Shown here in pieces: positions 9,701 through 40,539 of a stretch of DNA of 44,833 nt (positions are counted from its first letter, which is position 1; every line of letters starts with the position of its first letter). The DNA lies in NCBI GenBank assembly GCA_026418155.1, contig JAOABV010000009.1, positions 1-44,833 of the forward strand, read 5' to 3'. The translations under genes and the position numbers were made by a program. The stretch comes from a candidate division WOR-3 bacterium (GTDB lineage: Bacteria; Hydrothermota; Tepidihabitantia; Tepidihabitantales; CAIPLT01). Under the pieces are notes generated by a model that saw nothing but the letters and a program-made list of their open reading frames with translations, was not told the origin of the DNA and did not search any database.

Positions 9701-10022
9701 GTTCTGAAGAATAATTCTCTTTTTGGACAAGCAATGTTTGTTGATATTGATAAAGTTGAAGTGCCGGAATTAATTTACCTTTGATTTCGGAGAAACTATG
9801 CTCTATTCTCTGGGCTATTTTGAAGAAGGAACACCGAGAAAATGAATACAAGGAATATAAGGGAATTGATATTAGGGCTAATAAGATTAACCGGTTTAGG
9901 AAAAGACCAGTAATCAGTAGCAACAATAATATGAGTAGAGCAATAAAGACTGAAATCAAAAAAATAATTTGATTCTTAATAAATCGGTGCTGAAATTGTT
10001 TAAGGCGATAGTATAAATCCAT
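6786..10022 (-). CDS. DUF4175-like large membrane-anchored coiled-coil protein
   Basis: A 1078-aa protein. Membrane helices lie near residues 18-60 and 135-155; then comes a beta-rich extracytoplasmic part (about 170-460) and a long Gln/Glu/Lys/Leu-rich coiled-coil region (about 470-1000). The end has a conserved-looking LREELLRALQEGYP segment, followed by a short helix. This plan matches DUF4175-type proteins that occur with MoxR/DUF58/vWA and TPR genes in envelope-associated clusters; that context is from general knowledge, and only the TPR partner is present here. The ATG at 10022 is fixed by a promoter whose -10 ends 7 nt upstream, with no Shine-Dalgarno. A diverged 50-bp piece of a related gene lies at 23752-23801. 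Confidence 0.7.
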   Translation of the reverse strand: MDLYYRLKQFQHRFIKNQIIFLISVFIALLILLLLLITGLFLNRLILLALISIPLYSLYSFSRCSFFKIAQRIEHSFSEIKGKLIPALQLYQYQQTLLVQKENYSSELITAAIEQVNNQIKNLPLKNLINYKKTWYALIVTFILIFIMLGFIYVTPTHFRFGWKLAFAPQDAPLFLNISPGNTFVNKDSVVNLRLNFTTPIKNLSATIYAKGVEYTSKESLSINIKADKAFSYYFIIRSAWGVPIRRSPTYQIKLFEPIEITDLVFFYHYPSYTKLPVSQQRVQEINALLGTKVYFQAIASDSLISAYRINSIGLTETLSVNNREFKGHFTVIKPDSFYFLLKGNQQTQGKSFWYAIRPRFDESPYVRIFAPGQDLDVPVNMQVLIGMYGIDDFGINRFYLYWFKSTSTETSRILVKSSFGKNEDTAYYLWDLNKIIFLPGEEINYFAEIYDNDAVSGNKFSRSETYIIRFPTLNEIYSQVTEKTQTTIEKLSPLAKTEQKISQQLEKITEKLKAYRNLDWEEKSTLSEVLSEKQKLISEIKALQDEINNTISELYQGLMIDKETLEKLQEISKILSEILPQDLKEKLQILAEQALQKNPDLSKSLEQLKLSSDEMKQALSRALELLKNLQKEALLQSLARKAEEVFKQQSQLHHRIDNEKLSNLIQPQQQIGEEIKDLQNQINGLSKTFDDSAIQAQLSDIANELNKMQLSSQVNTITQNLSQNQKGQAKKGSQELLQDLKRLKERLQELADSYKQNQHLAIMERLLKNALALNQLSQEQEQIINQSNQALSRNLVLTQMRLVEATRVLAESIASLSEKSILIPIHWVKDLVKTFTLMERASTIIEDALHNNAQITQAQVLQKEAISQIDKTTLQILQFLSKGQMPNNFGAGLESLLQALSQLTAEQMMLGQQMGGMIPLPISGGLSQEQLSQLQRLLSMQSQLRSALEQLLQDINTGKYGELPGLSGSVEGAIEEMKNIEKDLSELNISRKTIERQEKIINRMLDAQRSIRQKEYSEKREREIGKDYSIPPSPILDKNLGETKKRLREELLRALQEGYPKEYETMIKNYFETIIQE

Positions 10023-10029
10023 ATGCTTT

Positions 10030-10058
10030 ATTATACTACCTATTTATCTGGTATTCAA
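10030..10058 (-). promoter_or_regulatory. Promoter of DUF4175-like gene, leaderless type
   Basis: On the minus strand: TTGAAT (10058-10053), 17-bp spacer, TATAAT (10035-10030), then 7 nt to the ATG at 10022. Transcription should begin within a base or two of the start codon. Confidence 0.75.
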
Positions 10059-10120
10059 GATTAGTTTGTGAACTAAAAGATTTTGGTTATTGAATGATTA
10101 GAATATAATTTTATATTAGT

Positions 10121-13100
10121 CTACTCTTTGACAATTTTCAAAACTTTTTTCCCGGTTATATCTCCATTTAACACTTGGTAGTCGATTACGATAAAATAGA
10201 CTCCTGCAGGAATATCTTTCAAAAACAACGGTATATGATATTTGCCAGATGCAATTGAAGATTCTTTGACTAATCGGTTAAGCGAACCGGTTTGGTTAAA
10301 AAGTTTAATGGAAATTTTACTTGGTTGCGGAATGTTGCAAGAGACATTTGCTGAAATATTACACGGATTAGGTTTAACATCAAAAAGAAACTTCGAGACT
10401 GAAACTGTAGTTTTTTCTTGAATTACAGGATATGTTATGGTCGAATTGGTGTTGTCCGCTAAGAAGTTTTTGTCAACATAAGGAACATAATTCCAGAATT
10501 CACGAGTATTATTACCTTTCTGGAGATAGATTTTGGCTGTACTTGCAGTTAATCCAGCACCGCCTTTAGGTACACTCTTTTTATCAAGTCTTCTTATCGT
10601 ATCTAATAAAGTCCAAGTGCCTTTATTGTCATTGGGAGTATATTTCCAAAATTCGTTGACGCCACCGCCTTTGATAGCATAAATTTCATTATTGAGCACA
10701 GTCAGGGCACCACCGGCTTTTACTCGGGTTTTCTTATTTACATCCCAGAATGCTCTTTGAGGAATTGTATCGCGTAGACTATCTCCGGGCCGATAAGACC
10801 AGGAATCACCAATAATATCATAATAATAGAACTCGTTAACTTTAGAACATCCTTTGAGCGCATAAATTCGGGAATTACCGTCAAAAACAATTGCAGAGCC
10901 CGCCTTGAATAATTTATTATCTGGACCAGCCGGAGCATTCGGTTTTTTTATCCAGGTGTCGTATTCGACCGCATAAGCGTAAAATTCAAATTGATTATTA
11001 GCACCTTTCAGTAAATAGACAAAAGAGGTTTCTTCAAATTGTTTATTATTTTGAGGCATCTTCTTATCGATTAGTTGTAAAAACTTTTTACTCTGAGCAG
11101 GAACATAAGTTATACTTGAGCCATCTTTACCACAGCCACCAGGAATTGATTTCTTTTGAATCCAAGTGTCAGTTTTGGGATTATAAACCCAGAATTCGTC
11201 GGCATTGTTACCTTTGATTGCGTAAATTAGAGTATCACCGAAACACATTGAAGCGCCTTTTTTCACTTTGCGTGCTTTAGGTTCAATGCCAAGATAGGCA
11301 AATGGTATTTCAGATTTATTTATCCAAGATGAGTCCTTAATCTTATAAGCAAAGAAGTCTCGCGTATTATTACCTTTTAACACATAAATACTGGAGTCTA
11401 ATGGACAATAGACTAAACAACCACCATCTTTAACATTTTTGCCACTGATCCCTAATGGAATATCCTTTAGTTTATACCAACCGAAAATAGGTTGTGGTGG
11501 AGGAATTACAGTCAATTTTCTTGGTTCTGAGGTCGGTCCGTATGGCATACCAGCTCTTACTCGCCAATAATAAGTGCCACCGGGCATTGAAAGATTATAA
11601 AAAGTATCCGAAGTTGTATTAACCGAATAAGCAATTTGGAATAATGAGTCACGAGCAATTTGCAACTCATAAATAGTAGCACCAGCAACCGAGTGCCATT
11701 GGAAAGGAATTGTAATTGCTAAAGTTTCAAGTCTGTTAGTTGGATAGATTAACGAAGGACCAAGTGGATACCAGGTGACAGAAAAGTCATCAAGATACCA
11801 CCAGTATTCATCATAGGCACCATAAAGAAAACAGACCCGAACATCAGGTTTTCCTGATGCATAAGCAGAGATGTTATGCACTTTTCGACCCGAATCAGTA
11901 ACATTGGTATATTGAGCAATTCTGGTCCAAGTCAAACCGCCATTATTACTTATCATTACAACTCCTGAATCTCGTCGGGTTGAATTCCAATCCCGGTACC
12001 AATGCCAATAAGAAAGATTATAAATGCCCGGATTAGAGCAATTCAGTCGTGGTGAGATTAATCGGTCATTATGGTTTTCTCGTGGACTGAAAAAGATTTT
12101 AGCAATAGTTCTGATATTAGAACCATAACGACAAGTATCACGGTACCAATCATTGGTGTTCCAAGTCGCAGGATTTTCCGTGCCGCCAGCAACAATCCGC
12201 CAGCCACCAAAAGGCGGCGCATCACCATAAGGACCCCAGTTTTCATTAAAATTGGCAGAATAGGGAATAGTTTGATATTTAGGCGCAATTACTGCATTGC
12301 GTCTTAAGGTATCGTTAGCAGGGTTCTGGTCATTGGGATTTTTCGTCCAGGTTTTTATGACAATTGTATCATATTCAGTCGGATTAAAGGGGTCAAAGGT
12401 AATCGTGCAGATTTCTCCTTCTTCTAAGGAGAGAACTTCAGTTGAATCAAGATAATTGAGCGTATTACCAGTGATTTGATAGAAGACCCAAACATCACTG
12501 GCACCGGTGTTGATGCTGTTGTTTCGAAAAGTCGCTTTTGGTGTATAGACAGAGTCAATAATGATTGGTAAATTCGGTGCGTCAATTCTTTCGGCAAAAA
12601 AATCGTAATGCGGAATTGGCTGAGGTAATATAATATCATCTAATCCAATCCAGTATTTATCAAAACAACGATAATGGAATGCAATATACAAATTAGCACT
12701 GTCAGTGAGATTTAAGGGGATAATTTTTCTTTGCCAATTGGTATTGTTAGTCACAATTCTTTGTAGTAAGACAAAATTTGCCGTGTCGAGATTATTTGCC
12801 GATGAGATGCGCACTAATAGTGTTTCGTAATAACTGGCTGATGCTGAACGATACCAAAAGATTATTGAGTCATTAGGAGCACAAGCAACCTGAGGACTTA
12901 TTAACCAGTCATTATTGGGCCAATAAGGATATTGGTCATAAACAATACGAACACCAGCAGGTTTAGTATAATAAGCACTTAGAGTATCCCGCATCCATTG
13001 GTTACCGCCATTGAAATTATAGATTGTCCAGCCAGCCGGTGGAAAATCAGTTGATTCAAAAGTCTGGCGGTACCCATGAGTATATACAAACACTGAGTGT

Positions 13101-14176
13101 TGAGCCGTATCATTGTCAGGAACTGGGTCACCGCTCAGTTCGGTCCAAACTTTTATTTGCCAATCTCCAGGTTGATTGGGAACATTCCAGGCTGGTTCAA
13201 ATGTGATAATTTCAGTTCCATTACGAGCAAGCGAAGTTTGGGTGTAACCAGTATCCATATAAGTCTCAGTGCCTGTGATTTGCAGAATTACCGGAATACC
13301 TGGAGATAAAGTATTTCTGCCGTAATTTCTTACTTGGGCTTTAATGGATATTGAGGTATCACTTTTTTGTACTTTATCAACATCAACTATTTGCTCTGTG
13401 CCAATATTATTATCTAAAGGCGTATAACTGACTACTGCTTCTTGAAGAAAATCATAATTGTAATAACTCCAAGATTGAGTAGGCAATCTCCGTGCATTTC
13501 TGGTTGTATCGGAATTTAATGAACCATCAATGAGTTGATAAACATCTGTAGTTAAACAGAAAATACCAATCCAGAAATTTTCGCCTGGATTGAAAGTGAT
13601 ATTAGAAGTTGTAAAAGTTAAACTAAACCAGGCATAGTAACCTGCCTGCCAAGTGCCGATTGTATACAAAGATCTAAATACAGATCGGCCTGGTCGGTGG
13701 ACATCATTTACAATTGTGTCGCGCCAAATTAATAAACTGCAAGGTGCAGGCGCGGTACTTGCGGGTCGATATAATGCAAAACGAATTGCTTTCACTGTAC
13801 ACTGAGATGCGGATAAACTTGGCATAGTTAAGCGAGTAGCAAAATAAGTTGAATCGATTGTAAAATAACTGCTTGCTGTTCTATCATGATTGCGAAGTGT
13901 GTCTAAGCCAGCGCCGGTTAAAAGAAGGTGCGATGCGTGAGGAACGATAGAAGAGAAACGAGGCGAAATTTTAGAAACAGTGAAAGAAGGTAAGTCAGGT
14001 TCATATTCAATAATTTCGGATTTAAGAGCAAAATTTTTACCAATTTGTTTCGCAACAACTGGAATAGTTAAATCCGTAAAAGAGGATTTCGGTTCTGACT
14101 TTGATATTGCATCGGAAAAAGAATATAAATTGAAAATTAAAAACCAAAAACTAAAAATTAATATTCGTATTTTCAT
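10121..14176 (-). CDS. Secreted multidomain Kelch-like protein with Por/T9SS-type C-terminal domain
   Basis: A 1351-aa surface or secreted protein. Order: signal peptide (1-21, ending YSFSDA); jelly-roll-like region; CARDB-like domain (about 258-360); choice-of-anchor/MAM-like domain (about 375-520, FPPAGWTIYNF and WLISPQ); second CARDB-like segment (about 525-625); second choice-of-anchor domain (about 640-800, FGGW and DRLISPRL); fibronectin-III-like segment (about 805-885); at least five Kelch-like repeats with IYALKG/FWxY motifs (about 900-1255); and a C-terminal beta domain (about 1270-1351) with FDVKPNPC, ISIKLFNQTG, PAGVYFI and KVLKI, as in type IX sorting domains. The ATG at 14176 is supported by the promoter 7 nt upstream; an in-frame codon at 14212 falls on the -35 box. 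Ligand unknown. Confidence 0.85.
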   Translation of the reverse strand: MKIRILIFSFWFLIFNLYSFSDAISKSEPKSSFTDLTIPVVAKQIGKNFALKSEIIEYEPDLPSFTVSKISPRFSSIVPHASHLLLTGAGLDTLRNHDRTASSYFTIDSTYFATRLTMPSLSASQCTVKAIRFALYRPASTAPAPCSLLIWRDTIVNDVHRPGRSVFRSLYTIGTWQAGYYAWFSLTFTTSNITFNPGENFWIGIFCLTTDVYQLIDGSLNSDTTRNARRLPTQSWSYYNYDFLQEAVVSYTPLDNNIGTEQIVDVDKVQKSDTSISIKAQVRNYGRNTLSPGIPVILQITGTETYMDTGYTQTSLARNGTEIITFEPAWNVPNQPGDWQIKVWTELSGDPVPDNDTAQHSVFVYTHGYRQTFESTDFPPAGWTIYNFNGGNQWMRDTLSAYYTKPAGVRIVYDQYPYWPNNDWLISPQVACAPNDSIIFWYRSASASYYETLLVRISSANNLDTANFVLLQRIVTNNTNWQRKIIPLNLTDSANLYIAFHYRCFDKYWIGLDDIILPQPIPHYDFFAERIDAPNLPIIIDSVYTPKATFRNNSINTGASDVWVFYQITGNTLNYLDSTEVLSLEEGEICTITFDPFNPTEYDTIVIKTWTKNPNDQNPANDTLRRNAVIAPKYQTIPYSANFNENWGPYGDAPPFGGWRIVAGGTENPATWNTNDWYRDTCRYGSNIRTIAKIFFSPRENHNDRLISPRLNCSNPGIYNLSYWHWYRDWNSTRRDSGVVMISNNGGLTWTRIAQYTNVTDSGRKVHNISAYASGKPDVRVCFLYGAYDEYWWYLDDFSVTWYPLGPSLIYPTNRLETLAITIPFQWHSVAGATIYELQIARDSLFQIAYSVNTTSDTFYNLSMPGGTYYWRVRAGMPYGPTSEPRKLTVIPPPQPIFGWYKLKDIPLGISGKNVKDGGCLVYCPLDSSIYVLKGNNTRDFFAYKIKDSSWINKSEIPFAYLGIEPKARKVKKGASMCFGDTLIYAIKGNNADEFWVYNPKTDTWIQKKSIPGGCGKDGSSITYVPAQSKKFLQLIDKKMPQNNKQFEETSFVYLLKGANNQFEFYAYAVEYDTWIKKPNAPAGPDNKLFKAGSAIVFDGNSRIYALKGCSKVNEFYYYDIIGDSWSYRPGDSLRDTIPQRAFWDVNKKTRVKAGGALTVLNNEIYAIKGGGVNEFWKYTPNDNKGTWTLLDTIRRLDKKSVPKGGAGLTASTAKIYLQKGNNTREFWNYVPYVDKNFLADNTNSTITYPVIQEKTTVSVSKFLFDVKPNPCNISANVSCNIPQPSKISIKLFNQTGSLNRLVKESSIASGKYHIPLFLKDIPAGVYFIVIDYQVLNGDITGKKVLKIVKE

Positions 14177-14183
14177 AGATATA

Positions 14184-14212
14184 AGTATAATTTGAAATTT
14201 GATAATTGTCAA
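14184..14212 (-). promoter_or_regulatory. Promoter of the Kelch-like protein gene, leaderless type
   Basis: Minus strand: TTGACA (14212-14207), 17-bp spacer, TATACT (14189-14184), 7 nt to the ATG at 14176. Near-consensus in both boxes; no Shine-Dalgarno is possible in so short a leader. Confidence 0.85.
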
Positions 14213-14432
14213 GATTTTTTAAGAGATATCCACAAAAGCCATTTTTAACACGAAAGCACGAAAAATAAACAAAAGTAAGAAACTCGTTCTGGCTCGAAAC
14301 AGGATAGGTTAAAACTGGATATTTTGGGCCTTTGTGCTATTTTCATATCTTTGGGACTTTTTAGTGTGTTTCCTTTGAGAGCTAAAAAAACAATATACAC
14401 GACCGGATTTTGTGATAATTTTTGGTAAGACT

Positions 14433-14547
14433 ATCTAAATGTTGGTATAAGTTCTGAGTTATTTGTAGAATGCCAAATCGGGAATTTTTTCTGCGAGCCA
14501 GAGCCAATGGCATCTAAATGTTGGTATAAGTTCTGAATTATTTGTAG
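14433..14547 (+). repeat. Pair of 36-bp direct repeats
   Basis: ATCTAAATGTTGGTATAAG... at 14433-14468 and again at 14512-14547, with a single mismatch (G/A in the TTCTGARTT part), 79 bp apart. The second copy ends 2 bp before the -35 box of the downstream operon, so it may be an operator or a mobile fragment. Confidence 0.8.
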
Positions 14548-14549
14548 GG

Positions 14550-14578
14550 TTGACATTCATTTTTAGTTAAGGTAAATT
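14550..14578 (+). promoter_or_regulatory. Promoter for DUF296-uvrB operon
   Basis: TTGACA (14550-14555), 17-bp spacer, TAAATT (14573-14578). It predicts a leader of about 107 nt before the ATG at 14692, which has its own Shine-Dalgarno AAGGGA. Confidence 0.6.
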
Positions 14579-14691
14579 TTATTATGATTGTTAAAGTAAT
14601 TATATGAATAAAAGTAATTATATGAATATTCGAATAAATAATTATATGAACACTATATTAAAAGTAAAAAAATAAATTAAGGGAAATTTTT

Positions 14692-15135
14692 ATGCAAGTC
14701 TTAAAAGTAAAAAATGGATATGTTTTGAAATTAGAAACAAACGAAGATATAATGGCATTACTCAAAGACTTTACGAAACAAAAGAAGATTAAAGGAGCAT
14801 TTCTCTTTGGACTCGGTGCTGGTAAAGAGATTACACTGGGATATTATGACCCGTTAAAAAAGAACTATCAGAAACGATTTTTTGCGGAAGATTATGAGTT
14901 TGCTTCCATCATCGGCAACATTGCCTATTTAGATGAAGAGCCAATATTACATATTCATTGCACAATTAGCCCGGGTAATTTTAATACTTATAGTGGCCAT
15001 CTGTTTTCAGCAAAAGTAGCAGCAACGGTCGAACTCTTGATAATTCCTTTAGATAAAAAATTATTACGAAAACCTGATACCAAAACCGGACTTAACCTGC
15101 TATTTTTTGACCCGAGTAAAACAAGTAAAAGGTAA
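14692..15135 (+). CDS. PPC/DUF296-domain protein (possible DNA-binding)
   Basis: A 147-aa single-domain protein of the PPC (DUF296) fold, known from plant AT-hook proteins and stand-alone bacterial homologues that form trimers. The metal-site motif is visible as ILHIHCTIS plus [10 protein letters not shown], followed by TVELLI. Ligand and role of the bacterial proteins are poorly defined. The start is supported by AAGGGA about 8 nt upstream. It lies 31 bp before uvrB on the same strand and is probably co-transcribed; I infer no direct repair role from that. Confidence 0.85.
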
Positions 15136-15166
15136 ACGCAAAAACTCGAAATTCGATTCTCAAAAA

Positions 15167-17179: not shown

Positions 17180-17222
17180 CTAAGTCGCAATGTGTCTTGC
17201 GAAGTTCCTTGAGGGCTAATCA

Positions 17223-18438: not shown

Positions 18439-18480
18439 ATAACAAAAGTAAGGATTTTAATAAGAAAGGCGGTGATAGAA

Positions 18481-18852
18481 ATGCCGGTAAGAACTACTTT
18501 AAGAAGAGTGCAAAAGTTTAAGGCAAAGTATGACCCGGAAGTAATTCGCAATGCGGTTGAAAAACAATTGGATGCAATTATTGAACAGCAGACTTATGCT
18601 CAAACGCAACTGGAGAAAGTTGAAAACCTGACTAAAGTTATTTTAGGCCAAGAAGGTGTGCCTTCGCCATTGATTCCAGCCTATTTAAACTTTGCTCGGC
18701 AGGTTTGGCGGATTCGAAATAAATTTTCGGCTGAAACCTTAAAGATTGAAACCGATATCGCATTATATAAATGGGTAAGGCGTTCATTGCAAGAATCAGT
18801 CTTAATTCGGATTCGGGACCAAATCTTTACTCTTGAAGCACCTGCGTCATAA
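18481..18852 (+). CDS. Uncharacterised small helical cytoplasmic protein
   Basis: A 123-aa basic protein, predicted mostly helical, with no signal peptide or membrane segment; I do not recognise a family. It opens MPVRTTLRRVQKFKAKYDPE and has charged helices ending in a KWVRRSLQESVLIRIRDQIF region. I chose the ATG at 18481 because AAAGGCGGTGAT, almost the full anti-Shine-Dalgarno complement, ends about 5 nt upstream; a GTG at 18472 falls within that site. It has its own near-consensus promoter, so it is probably well expressed and monocistronic. Confidence 0.7.
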   Translation: MPVRTTLRRVQKFKAKYDPEVIRNAVEKQLDAIIEQQTYAQTQLEKVENLTKVILGQEGVPSPLIPAYLNFARQVWRIRNKFSAETLKIETDIALYKWVRRSLQESVLIRIRDQIFTLEAPAS

Positions 18853-19991: not shown

Positions 19992-19994
19992 TTT

Positions 19995-20171
19995 TTATCG
20001 ATTAATACGCGGTAAATCTTTTTCATCAAAATGACATTTAACTGCATCAATTATCGATGTCTTCAATTCATCCAAAGAATCTGCCTCAGTAAAAATAGAG
20101 TAACCTAAAGCCCGTGCTTCATAACAACCTTCTTTTGACTCTTCAATTAAAAATATTATCTCTTTATCCAT
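19995..20171 (-). CDS. HicB-like antitoxin, truncated
   Basis: A 58-aa product with the sequence style of small HicB-type antitoxins (often misnamed 2-oxoisovalerate dehydrogenase): IIFLIEESKEG, YEARALGYSIFTEAD, LDELK and VKCHFDEKDLPR. Relatives continue for about 10 more residues after DLPR; here the frame ends at INR. A perfect AGGAGGTGA Shine-Dalgarno (20184-20176) lies 4 nt before the ATG, so it may still be translated. With the toxin destroyed it may be a relic or a solitary antitoxin. Confidence 0.7.
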   Translation of the reverse strand: MDKEIIFLIEESKEGCYEARALGYSIFTEADSLDELKTSIIDAVKCHFDEKDLPRINR

Positions 20172-20789
20172 TTAATCACCTCCTGATTTATTTATTTAAT
20201 ACTCATACAATTTTATGGTATTGATTAAAGTTTTATTGTTAATACTTGTAACACGAGTAATATTTGTAATATAATTAAGTATTTGCATTTTTCATAGATT
20301 CAATCTTTATAATTATTACAATCTCAATCGCTTGATTGTCAAGATTAATTTTTAAGCCTTCTGAAAAAGTGCCACTGACTGTTCTGCAGTACCGCAGACA
20401 TCACTCACTAAAAATACAGAAAGCCTGATACCCGATACAAGTATCCGAACCGGATACAGATTCTATTAATTTAATAACAAACATTTGTGATATGCACCAG
20501 TTTCTGGGTCGGTCAACAGCGAAGGAACAAAGTACTTGAGACCATTCTCCATCGTTTCACTCAGGTCAGGGAGATATCGGAAACAAGAGGCATTCTGAGC
20601 CTCGTGAAGAATCCTAACAGCGAAGAAACTCAATATTTGAGACCCTTTGACAAATTTAGAGTGATATAGTATGTCTATTTCAAGTTTATTTCGTGGTTAA
20701 AATTCATTATGAATTGAACACCAATTACACAAAGTTTAGCGATTGCAGTATTACGAATAATAATTTAAGAATAATTTGTGCGATTCGAC
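20172..20789. other. Accessory intergenic region with short repeats and hairpins
   Basis: 618 bp without a convincing gene. It contains a 7-bp hairpin GTATCCG-AAC-CGGATAC (20441-20457), a pair of related blocks beginning ACAGCGAAG at about 20515 and 20617, each followed by ...TTGAGACC, and two copies of TTCGTGGTTAAAATTC at about 20687 and 20790. A 60-codon open frame at 20487-20669 spans the blocks and is probably not a gene. Confidence 0.5.
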
Positions 20790-21568: not shown

Positions 21569-21682
21569 TTAAGTGACTCTATTATTTCTAATTTTTCTCA
21601 AACCAGCAATTCTAAAGAATATATTATCTTCTTTTAATGCGACTTGTTTAACTTCTAAATCTCGTTGATGATTATTTTTCAT
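21569..21682 (-). CDS. Possible 37-residue small protein overlapping mnmG stop
   Basis: A 37-codon frame whose ATG lies 11 nt inside the end of mnmG, so translation could be coupled. The sequence looks protein-like (QRDLEVKQVALKEDN, FFRIAGLRKIRNN) and is richer in charged residues than random AT-rich frames here. It could be the end of a lost gene, or a small basic protein. No family is recognised. Confidence 0.3.
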   Translation of the reverse strand: MKNNHQRDLEVKQVALKEDNIFFRIAGLRKIRNNRVT

Positions 21683-23588
21683 TTTTGATATTTGATTTTT
21701 GGTCTTTCTTTAAGTGGACCATTAAAGCAAATATTGCTGAGGGGGTCACGCCAGGAATTCTTTGCGCTTGGCCAAGATTATCCGGCTTAAATTTAGTTAG
21801 TTTTTCTTTTATTTCATTAGATAAACCATGGACAGTTCGAAAATCGAGACTGCTCGGAATTTTGATATTCTCCAATTCGTTAAATTTTTCAATGTCATTT
21901 AAGGTTCTCTCAATATATCCTTTATATTTCACTTCAATTTCAATGTTCCAAATTAAAGAGGTGTCTTTTAATAAGGGAATATTTGCTGGGGAAATGATTT
22001 CTGCAAGATGCGAATAACTTATTTCAGGTCTTCTTAATAATTCTTCTAAAGTAACCGAATACCTCAGGGGAGCAGTATTAAATTGTTTAAGTTTCCTATT
22101 AATTTTATCAGATGGTGAGATACGGGTTCGCTTCAACCAATCTAAGGTTTCGTTAATCTTTTTCTGTTTTTGTAAAACTTTTTTATAGTATTTATAAGGA
22201 ATCAAACCAAGTTGATAACCTTTGGGTGTTAATCTTAAATCGGCATTATCTTCGCGTAAAAGTAGTCGATATTCAACTCGGGAAGTAAACATTCGATAAG
22301 GTTCATTCGTGCCTTTAGTAATTAAATCATCAATCATTACACCAATATAAGCATCAGCCCGGGTCAAAATAAATTCGGGTTTTTCTTGGGCTTTTAATGC
22401 CGCATTAATACCGGCAATCAAGCCTTGAGCACCAGCTTCTTCATAACCAGTTGTGCCATTAATCTGACCAGCAAAAAATAAGTTCTCATATAGTCTTGTT
22501 TCTAAAGTTGGCTTTAATTGTGTTGGGTCAGAATAATCGTGTTCAATGGCATATCCTGGTCTTAAAATTTCAACCTCTTCCAATCCTTTAATACTTCGTA
22601 ACATCTTAATCTGAATATCTAAAGGTAGGCTAGTCGAAATACCATTAGGATAATATTCAATTGTATTTAATCCTTCGGGTTCAATAAAAATTTGATGTCG
22701 GTCTCGTTCAGGAAACTTTACAATCTTATCTTCAATTGATGGACAATATCTGACACCAGTTCCTTTGATAATTCCAGTATATAATGGCGAGCGATTAAGG
22801 CCAGATTTTATAATTTGATGGGTTTTGGGATTAGTATAAGTGATATAACAAGGACGATAATTTTTGACTTTCTTCTTGGTCCAGAATGAGAAAGGAATTG
22901 GTGGTTCATCGCCATATTGTGGTTCTAATTTAGCAAAATCAATTGTTCTGCCATCAAGTCGAGCCGGAGTCCCGGTTTTGAATCGGCCCATTGCAAAACC
23001 GAGTTCTTTTAAGTTTTGACTCAATTCGTTTGCCGGATATTCGCCTAATCTGCCTGAAGGAAAATTGACTAAGCCAATATGGATGAGACCTGATAAAAAA
23101 GTGCCTGGGGCAAGCACAATAGCTTTGGCATAAAACTTTTCACCAATTGTCGTTTCCACGCCAATTGCGATATTGCCTTTTACTAAAATTTTGCACACCG
23201 TGCCAGTATGAAGCAATAGATTTTGTTGTTGTTCTAACACTTCACGCATATAAGTCTTATAAAGTTGTCGGTCAGTTTGAGCTCGGGACGAATGCACTGC
23301 CTGACCTTTTTTAGTATTAAGTTGTCGATATTGAATTGCACTGCGGTCAGTATTTTTTCCCATCTCGCCACCAAGGGCATCAAGTTCTTTTACTAATTGG
23401 CCTTTACCAATGCCACCGATTGCGGGATTGCATGACATCAGTCCAATTGTATCAATATTCATTGTAATGAGCAAAGTTAAAGAACCGATTCGTGATGAGG
23501 CTAAAGCGGCTTCAATACCCGCATGACCACCGCCAACAACAATCACATCATATTTTCCACTATTTGGTGTAATGATATTATTCCGCAT
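21672..23588 (-). CDS. mnmG: tRNA uridine-5-carboxymethylaminomethyl modification enzyme, FAD subunit
   Basis: With MnmE (not in the window), installs the cmnm5 group at the wobble uridine of several tRNAs. At 638 aa it has the family length. Features: FAD-binding GGGHAGIEAA (from residue 19), CNPAIGGIGKGQLVKE, GTFLSG, and the second FAD segment NLFFAGQINGTTGYEEAGAQG. The last residues (KSNIKNEK) are low-complexity. The ATG at 23588 sits 8 nt after a -10 box, so the mRNA is predicted leaderless. No Shine-Dalgarno is present. Confidence 0.97.
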   Translation of the reverse strand: MRNNIITPNSGKYDVIVVGGGHAGIEAALASSRIGSLTLLITMNIDTIGLMSCNPAIGGIGKGQLVKELDALGGEMGKNTDRSAIQYRQLNTKKGQAVHSSRAQTDRQLYKTYMREVLEQQQNLLLHTGTVCKILVKGNIAIGVETTIGEKFYAKAIVLAPGTFLSGLIHIGLVNFPSGRLGEYPANELSQNLKELGFAMGRFKTGTPARLDGRTIDFAKLEPQYGDEPPIPFSFWTKKKVKNYRPCYITYTNPKTHQIIKSGLNRSPLYTGIIKGTGVRYCPSIEDKIVKFPERDRHQIFIEPEGLNTIEYYPNGISTSLPLDIQIKMLRSIKGLEEVEILRPGYAIEHDYSDPTQLKPTLETRLYENLFFAGQINGTTGYEEAGAQGLIAGINAALKAQEKPEFILTRADAYIGVMIDDLITKGTNEPYRMFTSRVEYRLLLREDNADLRLTPKGYQLGLIPYKYYKKVLQKQKKINETLDWLKRTRISPSDKINRKLKQFNTAPLRYSVTLEELLRRPEISYSHLAEIISPANIPLLKDTSLIWNIEIEVKYKGYIERTLNDIEKFNELENIKIPSSLDFRTVHGLSNEIKEKLTKFKPDNLGQAQRIPGVTPSAIFALMVHLKKDQKSNIKNEK

Positions 23589-23596: not shown

Positions 23597-23625
23597 ATTT
23601 TATAATCTAAAAAATCAAATGTCAA
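23597..23625 (-). promoter_or_regulatory. mnmG promoter, leaderless type
   Basis: Minus strand: TTGACA (23625-23620), 17-bp spacer, TAAAAT (23602-23597), 8 nt to the ATG at 23588. Confidence 0.75.
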
Positions 23626-27076: not shown

Positions 27077-28975
27077 TTACTCAATAAATTTTAATGTTGC
27101 GAAGGATTTTGGGTTATGTTCAAAAGGAACTGAATAGATGCTTACGGTCTCTTTACGCTTCTGAAAACGGACTAAATTAAAACCCCATTCAGTAGGTGTC
27201 TTGGAACTCAAGTCTTTTAAGGGAATTGCGATTTCCAAGGTCCAGCCCTTAAAACTTTTGGTATTCATAACCTGTCCTTTAGCAATAATATTACAGTTCC
27301 ATTTTGCATCTTTTTTAGAATCATTTCCTATCAGATAACATTTTCGGTCCATTACAGCACCATTAGCATTAACAAAAAATTGATAATAAGTATCACCTTT
27401 CACATCAGGCTGAAGAATGAAATTAAGATGGTCATCGTTATAAACTTTTTCATCCCGTTCTTTAATTGTAGTCGAAATCTTTTCAATTTCGTCATCGTTC
27501 ATTTTCGCACCAAGATAAATATAATTTTCGTCATAAGCAAACTGGACTTGCCAAGGGTCAGTTAAGGATATTTTGCCGTCACTGGAACCAAAAATATAAA
27601 TTGGCTTACTTTTTTGACCGAAACGGTCTTCATTACTTTTTGAATTATCGACTGAAATCAGTTTCGGATGCCAAATTGGTTCGTCTAACTTACCATCAAT
27701 ATTAATTGGTCTTTGGGTTTTAATACAAGTCGTAGTGAGTTTGATTGGTAATAATCGCTCAAGCAGATATATCTTTTTGCTATTAGCATAGGGATAGTGC
27801 AGTTTTATTTTGGGCAAAGGATAAATACTATCGCTTTTAATGCTTGTGGAAAATTCATATAACAAATTACTATCAGGTAGAATTGTGAGAATGGGGTTAG
27901 AAGGACTTATATACCATTGGCTATTTTCAGTTATCCATTCGCATTGTGTTGTAATCGGCGTTTCATTTATATTAGTTATTTTCAGAATGATGGAATTAGT
28001 TTTATCTATTGCAAAAGGTAAAATTTCAACTGCCTGTTCAATCTTTTTTATTTCTTGAATGTCTTGTAAAGTTACAACATCAGCGTTTAACTCTGAAAAT
28101 TTCGCTTTGGATGTAACGTGGTTATCGGCTTTGATAACTTCGAGATTAACTTTATCATTTTTTACTGATTTAAATGTATCGCGGTCTTCTACTTTGATAA
28201 CTTTGATATTAACTTTATTATTTTTTACGGAAACGACACTGAAATTTTGAAATGCGCCGAGTTCTTGTTTTCGGTAAATTTTGTATCTGCTACCGGAGGG
28301 GCCGACTTGGGTATAGGTAATGCCATCCCAAATTAATTGACAATAGAAATGGTCATGTCCAGAAAAGACATAGTCAACGCCATATTTCACAAACAATTTA
28401 TGAAAAGTATCGGGCTTATTATTAATATAAGCATCTTTCCAAAACGATTTATGCATAAAACAGAAAATGGTGGCGCTCTGCTTAAGTTTACTCAGTGTCG
28501 AATTCAACCAGTTCAATTGAATAGTATCAATCTCATTAACTTTTTCTTGTCGGCTATTATCTAAGACAACAAAATGATTATTACCAATTGAAAAAGCATA
28601 ATATGGTTTTTGATAACCAATGCGATAAAGATAAATTCGAAAACTCAGAGAATCCCATATATCGTGATTGCCGGGGGTAAAGTAAAATTTCTGTTTCCAT
28701 TTACCGAGATTAGAAAAAATTGAATCCCACTCAAGGTTAATGGTAGTTTCATTTTTTGTATATCCTTCAATTAAATCACCAACATTAATAATAAAGTCTG
28801 GTTTGATGGAATCAATCGCTAAAAGTATTTGTTCAAAAATTTCTTGCTCTGCGCTACCAGTCCTATCGCCTAAAACTACAAAGGTAAAATTTTTTTTATC
28901 AACACGAGGATTTATTGTTTGACTATAGACAAAAATGGGTAATAAAAGAAAGAATATAATTTTAATATGTTTCAT
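27077..28975 (-). CDS. Secreted metallophosphatase with CBM9-like C-terminal domain
   Basis: A 632-aa protein with a signal peptide (1-19, ending VYSQ). Calcineurin-like phosphoesterase motifs occur in order: LGDRTG, NVGDLIEG, PGNHDIW and SGHDHF (about 30-215), giving a di-metal site. A beta-rich linker follows; then a family-9-type carbohydrate-binding-like domain (about 420-632) with IDGKLDEPIW, YLGAKMNDDE and WTLEIAIPL. A 63-bp tandem duplication (28129 and 28192) makes two KxDKVNLEVIK-type segments. Substrate unknown. First gene of an operon with the GND-Y/HEAT protein. Confidence 0.82.
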   Translation of the reverse strand: MKHIKIIFFLLLPIFVYSQTINPRVDKKNFTFVVLGDRTGSAEQEIFEQILLAIDSIKPDFIINVGDLIEGYTKNETTINLEWDSIFSNLGKWKQKFYFTPGNHDIWDSLSFRIYLYRIGYQKPYYAFSIGNNHFVVLDNSRQEKVNEIDTIQLNWLNSTLSKLKQSATIFCFMHKSFWKDAYINNKPDTFHKLFVKYGVDYVFSGHDHFYCQLIWDGITYTQVGPSGSRYKIYRKQELGAFQNFSVVSVKNNKVNIKVIKVEDRDTFKSVKNDKVNLEVIKADNHVTSKAKFSELNADVVTLQDIQEIKKIEQAVEILPFAIDKTNSIILKITNINETPITTQCEWITENSQWYISPSNPILTILPDSNLLYEFSTSIKSDSIYPLPKIKLHYPYANSKKIYLLERLLPIKLTTTCIKTQRPINIDGKLDEPIWHPKLISVDNSKSNEDRFGQKSKPIYIFGSSDGKISLTDPWQVQFAYDENYIYLGAKMNDDEIEKISTTIKERDEKVYNDDHLNFILQPDVKGDTYYQFFVNANGAVMDRKCYLIGNDSKKDAKWNCNIIAKGQVMNTKSFKGWTLEIAIPLKDLSSKTPTEWGFNLVRFQKRKETVSIYSVPFEHNPKSFATLKFIE

Positions 28976-28981: not shown

Positions 28982-29009
28982 ATTATAGATATTTTTAAGA
29001 TATGGTCAA
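28982..29009 (-). promoter_or_regulatory. Promoter of the metallophosphatase operon, leaderless type
   Basis: Minus strand: TTGACC (29009-29004), 16-bp spacer, TATAAT (28987-28982), 6 nt to the ATG at 28975. Confidence 0.8.
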
Positions 29010-29564: not shown

Positions 29565-29592
29565 TTGACTTATAGATTTTTCAGAATAGAAT
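29565..29592 (+). promoter_or_regulatory. Promoter of trmI-btu operon, leaderless type
   Basis: TTGACT (29565-29570), 16-bp spacer, TAGAAT (29587-29592), 7 nt to the ATG at 29600. Confidence 0.7.
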
Positions 29593-29599
29593 TGGGATT

Positions 29600-30385
29600 A
29601 TGTTAAAGGTTGGTGACTTAGTCTTGCTTTATCATAATGAGCGAGCAAAATATCTTATTGCTGTTCAAGACAAAGGGCATTTTTCAACTCACAAAGGAAA
29701 TATTGACTTTGCCGAGGTTCTACATAAGAGTTTTGGTGAGGTTATAAATACTCATACAGGTATTCCATTTTTTATCCTAAGACCAACCTTGGCTGATTTG
29801 TCGATGAAAGTTAGAAGGACAACAACAATAGTTTATCCGAAAGATGCTGGACTAATGCTACTGAGAAGTTTTGTTTATCCTGGAGCACAGGTGATTGAAA
29901 CCGGCACCGGTAGTGGTGCTTTGACTGCAATTCTTGCGACTTATGTGCAACCTTATGGGAAAGTTTATTCTTATGAAGTCCGACAGGATTTTTCGGATAA
30001 TGCTAAAGAAAATCTAAAACGATTAGGTTTAGATAATTATGTTGAGTTTTATGTTCGTGATGTGGAAAAACAAGGATTTGAGCAAAAAGAGGTTGATGCG
30101 GTTTTTGTTGACCTGCCAGAGCCCTGGATTGCCATCAGACCGGCTTTTGATGCCTTAAAAGGTGGTTCTTCATTCTGTTCATTAAGTCCAAATACCGAGC
30201 AAGTTAGAAAGACAAAATCAGTTTTAGAATTAGAAGGTTTTGTCAGAATTAAAGTGGTTGAGATTTGGGAACGGGAACTTTTAGTCAGAGTTACCGGCAC
30301 AAGACCAGCCGAACGGATGGTTTCCCATACCGCGTATCTGGTATTTGCACAGAAAGGACAGAGAATAATAAAAAGTAATGTGTAG
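29600..30385 (+). CDS. trmI: tRNA (adenine-N1)-methyltransferase, TrmI family
   Basis: SAM-dependent enzyme making m1A58 in the T-loop of tRNAs. The 261-aa product has the N-terminal beta domain (GDLVLLYH, then PFFILRPTLADL), motif I ETGTGSGALT (about 98-107), acidic post-I residue in YEVRQD, and the motif IV DLPEPW. Family length is about 250-280. Opens a plus-strand gene set that continues with a B12-type importer; there is no obvious functional link. Confidence 0.92.
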   Translation: MLKVGDLVLLYHNERAKYLIAVQDKGHFSTHKGNIDFAEVLHKSFGEVINTHTGIPFFILRPTLADLSMKVRRTTTIVYPKDAGLMLLRSFVYPGAQVIETGTGSGALTAILATYVQPYGKVYSYEVRQDFSDNAKENLKRLGLDNYVEFYVRDVEKQGFEQKEVDAVFVDLPEPWIAIRPAFDALKGGSSFCSLSPNTEQVRKTKSVLELEGFVRIKVVEIWERELLVRVTGTRPAERMVSHTAYLVFAQKGQRIIKSNV

Positions 30386-31402: not shown

Positions 31403-31448
31403 TGATTTGAAGAAAAAGTTTAATTTTTAAGATGGTCATATAATTCTC

Positions 31449-32405: not shown

Positions 32406-32408
32406 CGT

Positions 32409-32531: not shown

Positions 32532-32551
32532 GTTAAAAAGAATTGTAGAAT

Positions 32552-33325: not shown

Positions 33326-33337
33326 TTACTCAAAATA

Positions 33338-33880: not shown

Positions 33881-33946
33881 CGATAATATTAAATTTTAGT
33901 GTAGAATTTTGCTGGGGTTAGAGAGCAGGGGAGAAGTAATATGCGG

Positions 33947-35590: not shown

Positions 35591-35645
35591 TTATTTTTCA
35601 CTGGGTTTTATTTTTAGTATTTGATTTTTTAAAAATATTTACAGG

Positions 35646-35719
35646 TAGCGGGGGCTGGATTCGAACCAGCGACCTTGAGGTTATGAGCCTCACGAGCTTC
35701 CAGACTGCTCTACCCCGCA
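35646..35719 (-). tRNA. Initiator tRNA-fMet (CAU)
   Basis: Full 74-nt cloverleaf with anticodon CAT. Initiator hallmarks: no Watson-Crick pair at 1-72 (T1 against T72), A11-T24 in the D stem, and CTCATAA anticodon loop. The anticodon stem has A29-T41, G30-C40, G31-C39, so only two of the usual three G-C pairs. The gene encodes ACC then T, so the terminal A must be added after transcription. Confidence 0.95.
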
Positions 35720-35727
35720 GTATGATT

Positions 35728-35756
35728 ATTATAAATAAAAATTGATAAAAAGTCAA
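35728..35756 (-). promoter_or_regulatory. Promoter of initiator tRNA
   Basis: Minus strand: TTGACT (35756-35751), 17-bp spacer, TATAAT (35733-35728), 8 nt to the first tRNA base. A start 7-8 nt after the -10 box puts the transcript end at the mature 5' end or one base before it. Confidence 0.82.
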
Positions 35757-36050
35757 TAAACCATCAGTTGTTATGCTTTAAATGTCCATTAATTAGTCGA
35801 AAACTATTACAAAAAATAAAGGCAATAAACACAAAATTTTATTATTGTTTGTTCTGTCTAATCACATATGAAGGTTTGTATTCAGGTTATTTTATGCTTT
35901 TGTGAATAAAATAATTTTTATCATTGTTTGGATAAAAAATATTTTTTGCAAAGATAATTTTGTCGGTAAAAGAAATTGGTTCGCGAAATTTTCTTTTTAA
36001 GTCTGTTTTAATATATTTTCAGTGTTATTATAATCTTTTAAAACTTCTTG
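35757..36050. other. Divergent intergenic region, no gene seen
   Basis: AT-rich spacer between the tRNA promoter and the rho promoter. I see no coding frame, hairpin terminator or repeat that I can support in it. Confidence 0.5.
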
Positions 36051-36078
36051 TTGACAAATTAATTATTTTTAGTAAAAT
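36051..36078 (+). promoter_or_regulatory. rho promoter
   Basis: TTGACA (36051-36056), 16-bp spacer, TAAAAT (36073-36078). Predicted leader about 62 nt, with AGAAGGTAAC before the rho ATG. Confidence 0.7.
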
Positions 36079-36147
36079 GTAATATCTTAAAATAAATTTA
36101 AATCATAACTAATAATTCCCAGTATTGTGGAAATTTAGAAGGTAACA

Positions 36148-37446
36148 ATGAAACAAACAAACGCAAAAAAATCTCAAAAGGAGATAAGCATGGATGCAGA
36201 AGAATTAAAGAAGAAAAAACTGGCGGAACTTTATGAAATCGCAAAGGAGCTCAATATTCCCGATTATAGCGAGAAAAAGAAGCAAGATTTAGTATTGTCA
36301 ATTTTAGAAGCAGGCGTCAAACAGAAAAGCGAATCCGCAGTTACGGTTAGTGGTGTGTTAGAAGTATTAGAAGACGGCTTCGGATTTTTACGGTCGCCTG
36401 ATTATAGTTATTTACCGAGCTCGGATGATGTTTATGTTGCTCCCTCACAGATCAAAAAATTCAATCTTAAAACCGGCGATACTATTTATGGCCAGGCTCG
36501 ACCACCAAAACCTGGTGAAAAGTATTTTGCTTTACTCAAGGTAGAAACTGTCAATAATGACCCTTTGGATGTAGTTCACGAAAGAATTCCTTTTGATGAC
36601 TTGATTCCGCTTTATCCGCAAGAGCGCATTCGCCTAGAGATAGAGGAGAAAAATGATTTCTCAATGCGAGTCGTTGACTTATTTATTCCTATTGGCAAAG
36701 GTCAACGAGGATTGATTGTTTCACCGCCTCGTGCTGGCAAAACCGTATTACTACAAAAGATTGCAAACAGCATTACAACAAATCATCCGGAAATCGTGCT
36801 GATTATTCTTTTAATTGACGAACGACCTGAGGAAGTTACAGATATGGAGCGTTCGGTTAAAGCCGAAGTAATAAGTTCGACTTTTGATGAGGTCCCGGAA
36901 CGACATGTAGAAGTTGCGGATATTGTTCTGGAAAAAGCAAAGCGATTAGTCGAACACAAGAAAGATGTCGTGATTCTTTTGGATAGTATCACTCGACTGG
37001 CGCGTGCGCATAATTTGGTTGTGCCCCATTCGGGCAGAACCCTATCCGGTGGTCTTGATTCTAATGCGCTACAAAAACCGAAGAAATTTTTTGGTGCAGC
37101 ACGTAATATTGAAGAAGGCGGGAGTCTTACAATCATTGCAACCGCGCTAATTGATACCGGCTCACGAATGGATGATGTAATTTTTGAAGAATTCAAAGGC
37201 ACAGGCAATATGGAGTTAGTTTTAGACCGGAAACTTGCTGACCGAAGATTGTTTCCTGCAATCGATTTACAAAAATCTGGAACTCGTAAAGAAGAATTAC
37301 TGCTTTCTGAATTTGAACTCAACCGAATCTGGATTATCCGTAAACTTTTGGCGGAATTGAATCCGATTGAAATGATGGAATTTATTCTGGATAAGATGCG
37401 CTTGACAAGAAATAATATTGAGTTCTTAGAATCAATGAATGAATAG
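36148..37446 (+). CDS. rho: Transcription termination factor Rho
   Basis: Hexameric RNA helicase that ends transcription. The 432-aa product has an N-terminal helical Rho_N part (about 15-55), the RNA-binding OB fold with GFGFLR (77-82), Walker A SPPRAGKT (192-199), Walker B ILLIDE, and the Q/R-loop region [21 protein letters not shown] supports the ATG. The scarcity of intrinsic terminators in this window fits Rho-dependent ends. It is followed closely by rpmE and prfB. Confidence 0.97.
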
Positions 37447-37465
37447 TCTTCACAATGAGGTACCA

Positions 37466-37669
37466 ATGAAAGATAAAATACATCCTAATTATGTTGATTG
37501 CATCATTACTTGTTCTTGCGGTAATGTGGTTAAAACCCGCTCAACTAAACCAAAAATTTCCGTAGAAATCTGTTCGGCATGCCATCCGTTCTTTACCGGC
37601 AAGCAAAAAATTATTGATACTGCCGGAAGAGTGGAAAAGTATCGGAAACGATATCAGAAAAAAGTTTAA
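37466..37669 (+). CDS. rpmE: Ribosomal protein bL31, zinc-binding form
   Basis: A 67-aa large-subunit protein. Four cysteines C16, C18 (TCSCGN), C36 and C39 ([10 protein letters not shown]) make it the zinc-bound C+ type. The ATG at 37466 is supported by ATGAGGT 5-6 nt upstream and gives the normal start MKDKIHPNY. Its TAA shares one base with the prfB ATG, so the two are translationally coupled. Confidence 0.95.
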
Positions 37670-38770
37670 TGCCAGATTTTCCTTCGGTTATCAAAACCTT
37701 ATCCGAGCGTCTAACCACATTGCAGGAGTTTCTTTGAAATTGATAAGAAGAAACAAGAAATAGCCCTGCTTACGGAAAAGAGCCAAAAACCTGACTTTTG
37801 GCAAGACCCCAAAACCGCTAAAGAAATTTTAGGTCAAATCCAAAAACTATCTGAGATTGTCCGTTCGATAGAACAAATAAAAAGAGAAATTGAAGAAGCC
37901 CAAGAACTATTAGCGCTTTTTGCTGGTGACGAACATTTAGAGAATGAACTTAATGTCCACTTAAATAAAATCGAAAAAGATTTATTTGAATTACAATCGA
38001 AAAGTCTTTTTTTAACTCCCGAAGATAGCAAAAAAGCAATTTTGACCATTCACCCGGGTGCGGGCGGTGTTGAATCTTGTGATTGGGCAGAAATGCTTTT
38101 TCGGATGTATACCAAATATTTTAATCGTAAAGGCTTTAAGTATCATATTCTGGATTACCAACCAGCCGAAGAAGCCGGTATCAAAGACGCAGTTATTGAA
38201 GTTCTGGGCGAGAATGCCTACGGTTTGCTAAAAGCTGAAATTGGGATTCATCGATTAGTACGAATTTCACCATTTGATGCTAATAAAAGACGACATACTT
38301 CGTTTGCAGCAGTTTTTGTCTATCCTGAGATTGAAGATGTGGAAGTAAATATTAATCCCAATGATTTGAAAATTGATACTTTCCGTGCAAGTGGTCATGG
38401 TGGTCAAGCCGTGAATAAAATTTCTTCGGCGGTCAGAATTACCCATATTCCCACAGGTATTGTGGTTACTTGTCAGAATGAGCGCTCGCAATTTCAGAAT
38501 AAACAAAACGCTATGAAAATTTTACGGGCGCGACTTTATGATTATTATAAAAAACAACAAGATGAAAAGTTACAGAAATTAGAAGAGACCAAAACAGAAA
38601 TTGCATGGGGACACCAAATCCGTTCATATGTCTTTTTTCCATATCAAATGGTCAAAGACCACAGGACAGGTTTAGAAACCGGTGATATTCAAAAAGTTAT
38701 GGACGGAGATTTAGATGACTTTATCTATGCCTTCCTTTTGTCAAAACAGAACAAATCCAAGCCCAATTAA
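37669..38770 (+). CDS. prfB: Peptide chain release factor 2, with programmed +1 frameshift
   Basis: RF2 reads UGA and UAA stops. Translation from the ATG at 37669 runs 22 codons to an in-frame TGA (37735-37737); a +1 shift at CTT-TGA continues to 38770, giving about 366 aa (E. coli 365). Motifs after the shift: PDFWQDP, the SPF anticodon-like tripeptide (VRISPFD), and the catalytic GGQ (SGHGGQAVN). A Shine-Dalgarno-like AGGAG is 3 nt before CTT, as in other prfB genes. Simple gene finders will see only a truncated C-terminal part. Confidence 0.96.
37724..37738 (+). promoter_or_regulatory. prfB autoregulatory frameshift site
   Basis: AGGAG, three bases, CTT, TGA, A. The internal Shine-Dalgarno and slippery CTT before a UGA codon are the known RF2 autoregulation signal. 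The base after TGA is A rather than the more common C, which may change shift efficiency. Confidence 0.93.
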
Positions 38771-38848
38771 ATATATCTGCGTATTTTTTATACAAGATAC
38801 CTTAATCAAATATATCTGTATATTTTTCTCATAAAACACCTTAATCGT
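38769..38848 (+). repeat. 39-bp tandem duplication after prfB
   Basis: AAATATATCTG...CCTTAATC occurs at 38769 and 38808, with a 39-bp period and several mismatches. The remainder of the 38771-39062 gap is AT-rich with no supported gene. Confidence 0.65.
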
Positions 38849-39062
38849 AATTTCGCATCGAGAATTAAGATTATTTTTGCAATAATAGTAATGAATCTAT
38901 GTTTTTTTAACTTCAAAGTTTGTGGCTTGAGATGTTTTCTAGATTGTGAAATTATAACTTCGAATAAGATTATTTTGCTTTTGAGTACACATAATATTTT
39001 TCCGTTTCTTCTGGTGACTTCAATGGCTTTTTCATACCTATTAGACACATTGCAATGTGTTC

Positions 39063-39090
39063 TTGACAAATTGGATTTTTATAGTAAATT
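39063..39090 (+). promoter_or_regulatory. proS promoter, leaderless type
   Basis: TTGACA (39063-39068), 16-bp spacer, TAAATT (39085-39090), 6 nt to the ATG at 39097. Confidence 0.72.
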
Positions 39091-39096
39091 AGGCAT

Positions 39097-40539
39097 ATGG
39101 CAGATAAAAAAGAATTTGTGAAAGAGATTCCATCAAAGCAAGATAGTTTCTCTGAATGGTATACTGCGGTGATTCTCAAAGCAGAATTAGCGGACTATGC
39201 GCCAGTGCGCGGTTGTATGGTTATTCGACCTTACGGTTACCGAATTTGGGAACTGATGCAATCACTCTTAGATAAAAGATTTAAAGCAACCGGGCATCAA
39301 AATGCATATTTTCCGATATTTATTCCTGAAAGTTTTTTACAAAAGGAAGCAGAACATGTTAAAGGATTTTCACCGCAGGTCGCTTGGGTGACAAAAGGCG
39401 GCGACGAAGAGTTAACAGAAAGATTAGCGATTCGACCGACTTCAGAAGCAATTATTTGTTCAATGTATGCCAAATGGGTAAAGTCATATCGAGACCTACC
39501 AATTTTAATTAACCAATGGTGTAACATTGTCAGATGGGAGAAGACTACCCGCTTGTTTTTGAGAACAACAGAATTTTTATGGCAGGAAGGTCATACCCTC
39601 CATCGCACAAAAGAAGAAGCTGAAGCCGAAGCCATTAAGATGTTAAATGTCTATGTAGACTTTGTTCAAAATGATATGGCGATTCCTTTAATCTATGGCC
39701 GAAAACCGGAAAGCGAGAAATTTCCTGGCGCCTTGCATACATACACTATTGAAGCCTTAATGCCCGATGGTCAAGCCCTACAAGCAGGAACATCTCATAA
39801 CTTAGGACAATTTTTTTCAAAAGCATTTGACATAAAATATCTGGATGAAGATAATATTGAAAAATATCCTTGGGGAACTTCTTGGGGATGTACCACACGT
39901 TTAATCGGCGCTTTGATTATGACTCATGGTGACGATAAAGGTTTGAGATTGCCCCCGCGGATTGCGCCAATTCAGATTGTGATTGTGCCGATTCTCTTTG
40001 GAAAAAGCGATGAGAAAGTATTAGTTAAAACTAAAGAAATATACGACAATTTAAAAAATGATTATCGTGTCTATTTGGATGATAGATTAGAATATACGCC
40101 AGGCTGGAAATTTAATGATTGGGAGATGCGAGGTGTTCCCTTACGTATTGAAATCGGACCTAAGGATATTGAAAAAGAACAATTAGTTCTTGTGCCGCGT
40201 GATGAAACTGGTAAAAGAGCTATTCGTCTATCGGAAATAAAAGAAAATATTGAGACTATCTTAAATCAAGTACAACAGAATCTATTTACTTCTGCCCAGC
40301 AGAGATTATTTGAAAATATATCTGAAGCATATACCATTGAAGAATTTAATGACAAAATTAGCGAAAAACCTGGTTTTGTCAAGGTCTTCTGGTGTGAAAA
40401 ACAGCAATGTGAAAATGAAATTATCGATAAGACTAAGACAACACCGAGATGTATTCCTCTTAATGAGAAGCATAAAGGTAAATGTATTATTTGTGGCAAA
40501 GAAACTGAGACTATAATTTATTACGCTCGAGCATATTAA
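39097..40539 (+). CDS. proS: Prolyl-tRNA synthetase, archaeal/eukaryotic type (ProS type 3)
   Basis: Charges tRNA-Pro. The 480-aa length, lack of the bacterial editing insertion, and C-terminal zinc-type domain (CEKQQC...CIICGKE) ending in YYARAY mark the archaeal/eukaryotic form. Class II motifs: motif 2 region RWEKTTRLFLRTTEFLWQEGH and motif 3 GTSWGCTTRLIGALIMTHGD. This form also occurs in scattered bacteria, so it is not by itself proof of recent transfer. The ATG is fixed by the promoter 6 nt upstream. Confidence 0.96.
   Translation: MADKKEFVKEIPSKQDSFSEWYTAVILKAELADYAPVRGCMVIRPYGYRIWELMQSLLDKRFKATGHQNAYFPIFIPESFLQKEAEHVKGFSPQVAWVTKGGDEELTERLAIRPTSEAIICSMYAKWVKSYRDLPILINQWCNIVRWEKTTRLFLRTTEFLWQEGHTLHRTKEEAEAEAIKMLNVYVDFVQNDMAIPLIYGRKPESEKFPGALHTYTIEALMPDGQALQAGTSHNLGQFFSKAFDIKYLDEDNIEKYPWGTSWGCTTRLIGALIMTHGDDKGLRLPPRIAPIQIVIVPILFGKSDEKVLVKTKEIYDNLKNDYRVYLDDRLEYTPGWKFNDWEMRGVPLRIEIGPKDIEKEQLVLVPRDETGKRAIRLSEIKENIETILNQVQQNLFTSAQQRLFENISEAYTIEEFNDKISEKPGFVKVFWCEKQQCENEIIDKTKTTPRCIPLNEKHKGKCIICGKETETIIYYARAY

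Follow-up and report, generated by a model that had tools for sequence, protein, structure and literature searches.

Leaderless expression is usually seen as a trait peculiar to actinobacteria, Deinococcus-Thermus and archaea. In Deinococcus-Thermus, leaderless genes have a -10 motif next to their open reading frames and amount to about 30–46% of the genes (Zheng 2011, PMC3160421; Zhong 2025, PMC12340547). A very similar layout is found in candidate division WOR-3, a phylum named Caldifarciminota in NCBI's current naming: As in Deinococcus-Thermus, the -10 box lies 6–7 bp before the open reading frame, there is no Shine-Dalgarno (SD) sequence, and a ribosome binding site motif coexists with this arrangement. 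On the other hand, WOR-3 belongs to another phylum and differs in having a strong TTGAC -35 box, a spacing of 16–17 nt, an AT-rich -10 box and a lower overall fraction of such genes. Actinobacteria (e.g. M. tuberculosis, PMC3898074) also have a -10 box adjoining the start codon and mixed leaderless and SD genomes, but they are an unrelated lineage with high-GC TAnnnT boxes (PMC3160421). Their transcript ends have been mapped (PMC3898074), while those of WOR-3 are predicted from sequence. The sequence-only reading of this DNA had named these two groups for leaderless starts with such a spacing, and the papers just cited bear this out.

Surveys of bacterial genomes show how common this mode is. 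Leaderless genes were reported in 207 of 953 genomes (PMC3160421), and the accessible text of PMC9581028 gives leaderless transcription as predicted by GeneMarkS-2 in 21.6% of 4,769 representative bacterial genomes. In that text, the leaderless clades examined are Actinobacteria and Archaea, FCB genomes are given AT-rich non-canonical ribosome binding sites, and WOR-3 is not found among the clades named. By our analysis, the genome studied here would fall in the leaderless class of GeneMarkS-2, which combines a promoter model and an SD model. The more recent survey was run on complete reference genomes, leaving out unclassified species (PMC12340547). In the open-access literature, which is only part of the whole, we have found no paper joining leaderless expression with WOR-3 or the other names of the phylum, in line with the earlier statement that no description of leaderless starts is known for this lineage. 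What appears to be new is the lineage; leaderless initiation itself is a well-known, though minority, way of starting translation.

The window, a stretch of 44,833 nt, is contig 9 of a 1.74-Mb assembly (122 contigs, 95% complete) with about 35% GC. The rho of the window shares 81% identity with that of a candidate division WOR-3 bacterium; the next best matches, in other phyla, reach about 71%. Direct reading of the sequence reproduces exactly the hexamers and spacings of the six -35/-10 pairs which had been claimed to end 6–8 nt before an ATG. Four are on the reverse strand. The gene at 6786–10022 is preceded by TTGAAT (10053–10058), 17 nt, TATAAT (10030–10035) and 7 nt, and the gene at 10121–14176 by TTGACA (14207–14212), 17 nt, TATACT (14184–14189) and 7 nt. 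The mnmG gene (21672–23588, Pfam GIDA) has TTGACA, 17 nt, TAAAAT and 8 nt (promoter at 23597–23625), and a metallophosphatase gene (27077–28975, Pfam Metallophos) has TTGACC, 16 nt, TATAAT and 6 nt (28982–29009). The other two are on the forward strand: trmI (29600–30385, Pfam GCD14) has TTGACT, 16 nt, TAGAAT and 7 nt (29565–29592), and proS (39097–40539) has TTGACA, 16 nt, TAAATT and 6 nt (39063–39090). Only ten of the 1,316 ATGs in the window, counting both strands, have a promoter at 6–8 nt, and six of these ten are the gene starts just named.

Pfam backs the identities of MnmG/GidA, the TrmI/GCD14 methyltransferase and ProRS, while the metallophosphatase matches a calcineurin-like phosphoesterase and has an N-terminus resembling a signal peptide. 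The product of 10121–14176 also starts, at the promoter-adjacent ATG, with a sequence of this kind. This protein is large and secreted, and Pfam gives weak matches, most of them under the cut-off, to Cleaved_Adhesin, Kelch and Por_Secre_tail, which suggest a type IX-like sorting tail.

As had been noted, none of the six starts has an SD, while other genes in the window do carry one. For contrast, the gene at 18481–18852 (forward strand) has an SD-type start, GGCGGTGATAGAA followed by ATG (18468–18483), and the small gene at 19995–20171 (reverse strand) has a strong one, AGGAGGTGATTAA followed by ATG (20169–20184). A seventh promoter of the same kind, TTGACA/17/TAAATT/5, opens a seven-codon reading frame (MIVKVII and a stop codon) at 14550–14607 on the forward strand, upstream of an SD-bearing gene (14692–15135). 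This might be a leaderless mini-ORF. It is followed by near-repeats of AAAGTAATTATATGAAT and lies about 80 nt upstream of the SD-bearing gene, which codes for a PCC domain.

This arrangement is not limited to the window. In the whole genome, the pattern TTGACN-N16-18-TANNNT-N5-8-ATG is found 153 times, compared with 18 for the reversed pattern. When the same promoter is placed 25–28 nt from the ATG, the counts are 44 and 17 in the control, so that the excess at 5–8 nt is five times that at 25–28 nt. We have also called genes on the window and L081–L120 (814 kb, 47% of the genome), with starts chosen only from a dicodon coding score and the type of start codon. Since upstream signals were kept out of this procedure, the starts are unbiased by the promoter. 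For the gene at 6786–10022, the caller placed the start downstream, at an internal TTG (9734). The promoter of this gene is therefore the least certain of the six, and the counts of leaderless-type genes given below are, if anything, low.

A promoter weight matrix was trained on one half of these data (half A), ignoring position, and then run on both halves. A promoter is found at 5–8 nt in 25 of 169 divergent and well-separated genes in half A (P = 1e-22) and in 22 of 145 in half B (P = 3e-14), while other windows of 4 nt contain 1.4 and 2.4 promoters, respectively, and shuffled sequences at most 2. The distance from the -10 box to the start codon peaks at 5–8 nt, with a mode of 6 nt, in both independent halves. 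A sharp peak of this kind is what the sequence-only reading had asked for as support, and it is absent from operon-internal genes. With a mode of 6 nt, the +1 position of a standard sigma-70 promoter falls on the A of the ATG. Among the promoter matches up to 90 nt from a start, 56 are at 5–8 nt, 17 at 0–4 or 9–19 nt and about 56, after subtraction of the operon-internal background, at 20–89 nt. No other single position is as common as the flush one, which has about 43% of the total.

These promoters are a feature of genes which open transcription units, as had been suggested. At a strict promoter cut-off, the leaderless type is found in 32 of 92 divergently oriented genes (35%, or 40% among unambiguous starts), in 18 of 222 well-separated co-directional genes (about 8–9%), in 1 of 149 closer co-directional genes and in none of the 83 operon-internal genes; the difference between divergent and operon-internal genes has P = 1e-10. 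SD sites, defined by at least four matching bases, are present in 34% of divergent genes; among operon-internal genes the figure is 54%, and the background is 16%. The mixed usage of both modes in one genome had thus been rightly described, but to call leaderless mRNAs the norm was an overstatement: Roughly two in five first genes with divergent orientation (35–40%) are of this type, and a similar number have SD leaders. About one third of divergent genes have neither signal at these cut-offs, partly because of wrong start calls.

Leaderless and SD signals avoid each other (P = 2e-5). In divergent and well-separated genes, 4 have both signals, 46 only the leaderless one, 98 only an SD and 166 neither. 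The bases around the start also differ: T is found at -1 in 72% of leaderless-type genes, compared with 41% of those with an SD (P = 6e-5). The 54 leaderless-type starts include 48 ATG, 6 GTG and no TTG. This preference and the absence of TTG are expected if transcription starts at the purine of the start codon.

Of the explanations considered, leaderless or near-leaderless transcripts fit this architecture best by a wide margin, and we consider this reading very probable. In many genes opening transcription units, in this genome and in its class, a primary promoter of the sigma-70 type is flush with the coding sequence: -35 TTGACN, 16–17 nt, -10 TANNNT, about 6 nt and ATG. RNA polymerase would initiate on the A of the ATG, or 1–2 nt earlier, giving an mRNA with neither leader nor SD, which would be translated by leaderless initiation, with a 70S ribosome binding the AUG at the 5' end. 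We infer the exact 5' ends and the 70S route from the layout of the sequence. Operon-internal genes and about one third of first genes would use their SD, with a ribosome whose 16S rRNA has a canonical 3' end. The 16S gene is absent from the assembly of the window genome, so the anti-SD was read in relatives from the order: all 12 of their 16S genes examined have the canonical GGATCACCTCCTTT at the 3' end.

The alternative which survives best is that the transcripts have leaders of 1–5 nt, or that these promoters are secondary and the main transcripts start farther upstream and are leadered. Spacings of 7–9 nt do permit leaders of 1–3 nt, and promoters farther upstream are compatible with the sequence. 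Nevertheless, an SD is found in just 4 of the 50 genes with an adjacent promoter, compared with 98 of the other 264 divergent or well-separated genes, so leadered transcripts of the former would have no known start signal, and the preference for T at -1 and A at +1 favours initiation at the ATG itself. We consider this alternative unlikely.

A weaker alternative accepts the promoters and places the error in the start codons: The true starts would be downstream, with normal leaders and SD sequences. Gene starts are often miscalled, and some of these genes have further in-frame ATGs. The peak is nevertheless maintained in genes which leave no such choice: It is found in 23 of 57 divergent genes with neither an alternative upstream start nor an ATG in the next 20 codons. 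In addition, conservation in proS, trmI and mnmG reaches almost as far as these ATGs, and the distance of the promoter follows the ATG. For both reasons we reject this explanation, which we regard as very improbable.

The three orthologue families were compared in related genomes. Of the 25 proS loci whose N-terminus can be read, the window included, 24 have a -35/16/-10 promoter at 6–9 nt. The -35 box is TTGAC(A/T), the spacer and flanks vary between loci, and the -10 box takes many forms: TAAATT, TAGATT, TAATAT, TAGTAT, TACCAT, TATCTT, TATTTT, TATAAT, TACTAT and TAAGAT. The genomes which keep this promoter differ widely in base composition. In trmI, TTGAC(T/C/A)-16/17-TA(G/C)AAT is found at 5–8 nt in 18 of the 23 loci compared in the order, again including the window. 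Of the five exceptions, four lack this promoter and have an upstream sequence which looks coding; in the fifth (L283), TTGACT is present and the -10 box is beyond the tested distance. The mnmG promoter is retained in most of the order and missing in families f2 and f6, where the start adjoins an apparent upstream coding gene. These promoters therefore come and go with the position in the transcription unit, at a fixed distance from the start codon. In genus g13 (G114–G118; mnmG loci L185, L187, L189 and L190), the mnmG match is split near residue 121, and the distance from the promoter appears to be 10–11 nt with the start chosen; these starts may be misassigned.

The same pattern was counted over 147 genomes of the phylum. 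In the class of the window genome (families f1–f10), the excess at 5–8 nt is large, about 90–390 sites in the tabulated genomes, and 3–20 times that at 25–28 nt. It is also clear in f15, f28–f33 and f36 and modest in f11–f14 and f16, while f17 and f20–f23 have little or none. For the position of the promoter relative to called genes, some families (f17, f19, f21, f25 and f26) were sampled at 20–60 kb, with few genes each. In other phyla, the genomes reached through rho give mostly about 1–3 times the control, a few somewhat more, far under the class of the window. These low counts show that AT-richness does not in general bring the pattern with it. That TANNNT boxes, common before any ATG in an AT-rich genome such as this one, should produce the excess by chance has a negligible probability and is refuted by the controls, since reversed patterns and shuffles are about tenfold or more lower and GC-richer relatives show an even larger excess (395 vs 4 in G116, family f5, with 59% GC in the sample; 227 vs 2 in G102, with 44% GC). 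In the small 60-kb sample of G116, the few promoter sites present lie at 10 nt, while the genome-wide excess is at 5–8 nt. The same pipeline finds no promoters at 5–8 nt in 150 kb of E. coli MG1655, where TANNNT is below expectation, and 16 TANNNT boxes at 5–9 nt (1.7 expected), with a peak at 6–8 nt, in 200 kb of Thermus thermophilus pTT27, in agreement with the earlier work on that phylum (PMC3160421, PMC12340547).

The leaderless mode appears well established throughout a class of a phylum most of whose members are uncultured, and its distribution over the 147 genomes is graded: a natural series of how leaderless and SD modes may replace each other. The phylum does have a pure culture, strain sy37 (NBRC 116057, genome AP038914; PMC12285271), which PMC12542636 assigns to class Hydrothermia. 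There are practical consequences as well. Gene finders which assume an SD may misplace starts in these genomes, and the fixed 6-nt spacing could be used to call promoters and starts jointly in metagenome-assembled genomes.

Families f22 and f23 are a special case: The TTGAC pattern is absent, yet TANNNT is found at 5–9 nt. The samples analyzed were G043 for f23 (L137–L140 and L235–L244) and G035 for f22 (L141–L144 and L245–L254). In f22, 32 TANNNT sites precede 67 first genes (6.9 expected), nearly half of them, and the motif is CTT-TAWAMT. In f23 there are 46 sites before 78 first genes (7.9 expected). The box is present in 43 of these 78 genes, with a C 6 nt before it in 91% and another 3 nt before it in 72% of the cases, and no -35 box is visible. 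The resulting element, CNNCNNTANAAT-N5-9-ATG, that is, C-N2-C-N2-TANAAT, precedes more than half of the first genes. With a spacing of 7 nt (CNNCNNTANAAT-N7-ATG) it is found 64–101 times per genome in all eight f23 genomes (control 1–10) and about 20 times in two f22 genomes; elsewhere it is near the control.

The f23 element looks like a lineage-specific promoter without a -35 box, flush with the start codon. We lean, with some reservation, towards the view that in f23 the -35/-10 promoters at gene starts have been replaced by this extended element. It would be a promoter class peculiar to the lineage and linked with leaderless expression; a diverged primary sigma factor would presumably recognize it, and f23 would have one of the highest leaderless fractions among bacteria. 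With f23, one can test how a change of promoter and leaderless usage are linked. In some divergent gene pairs of G043, a common region of about 45 bp contains two -10 boxes in opposite orientation and little more. An example is TACTGTCGG...GGCTATAAAAT together with its reverse complement; these appear to be very compact divergent leaderless promoters.
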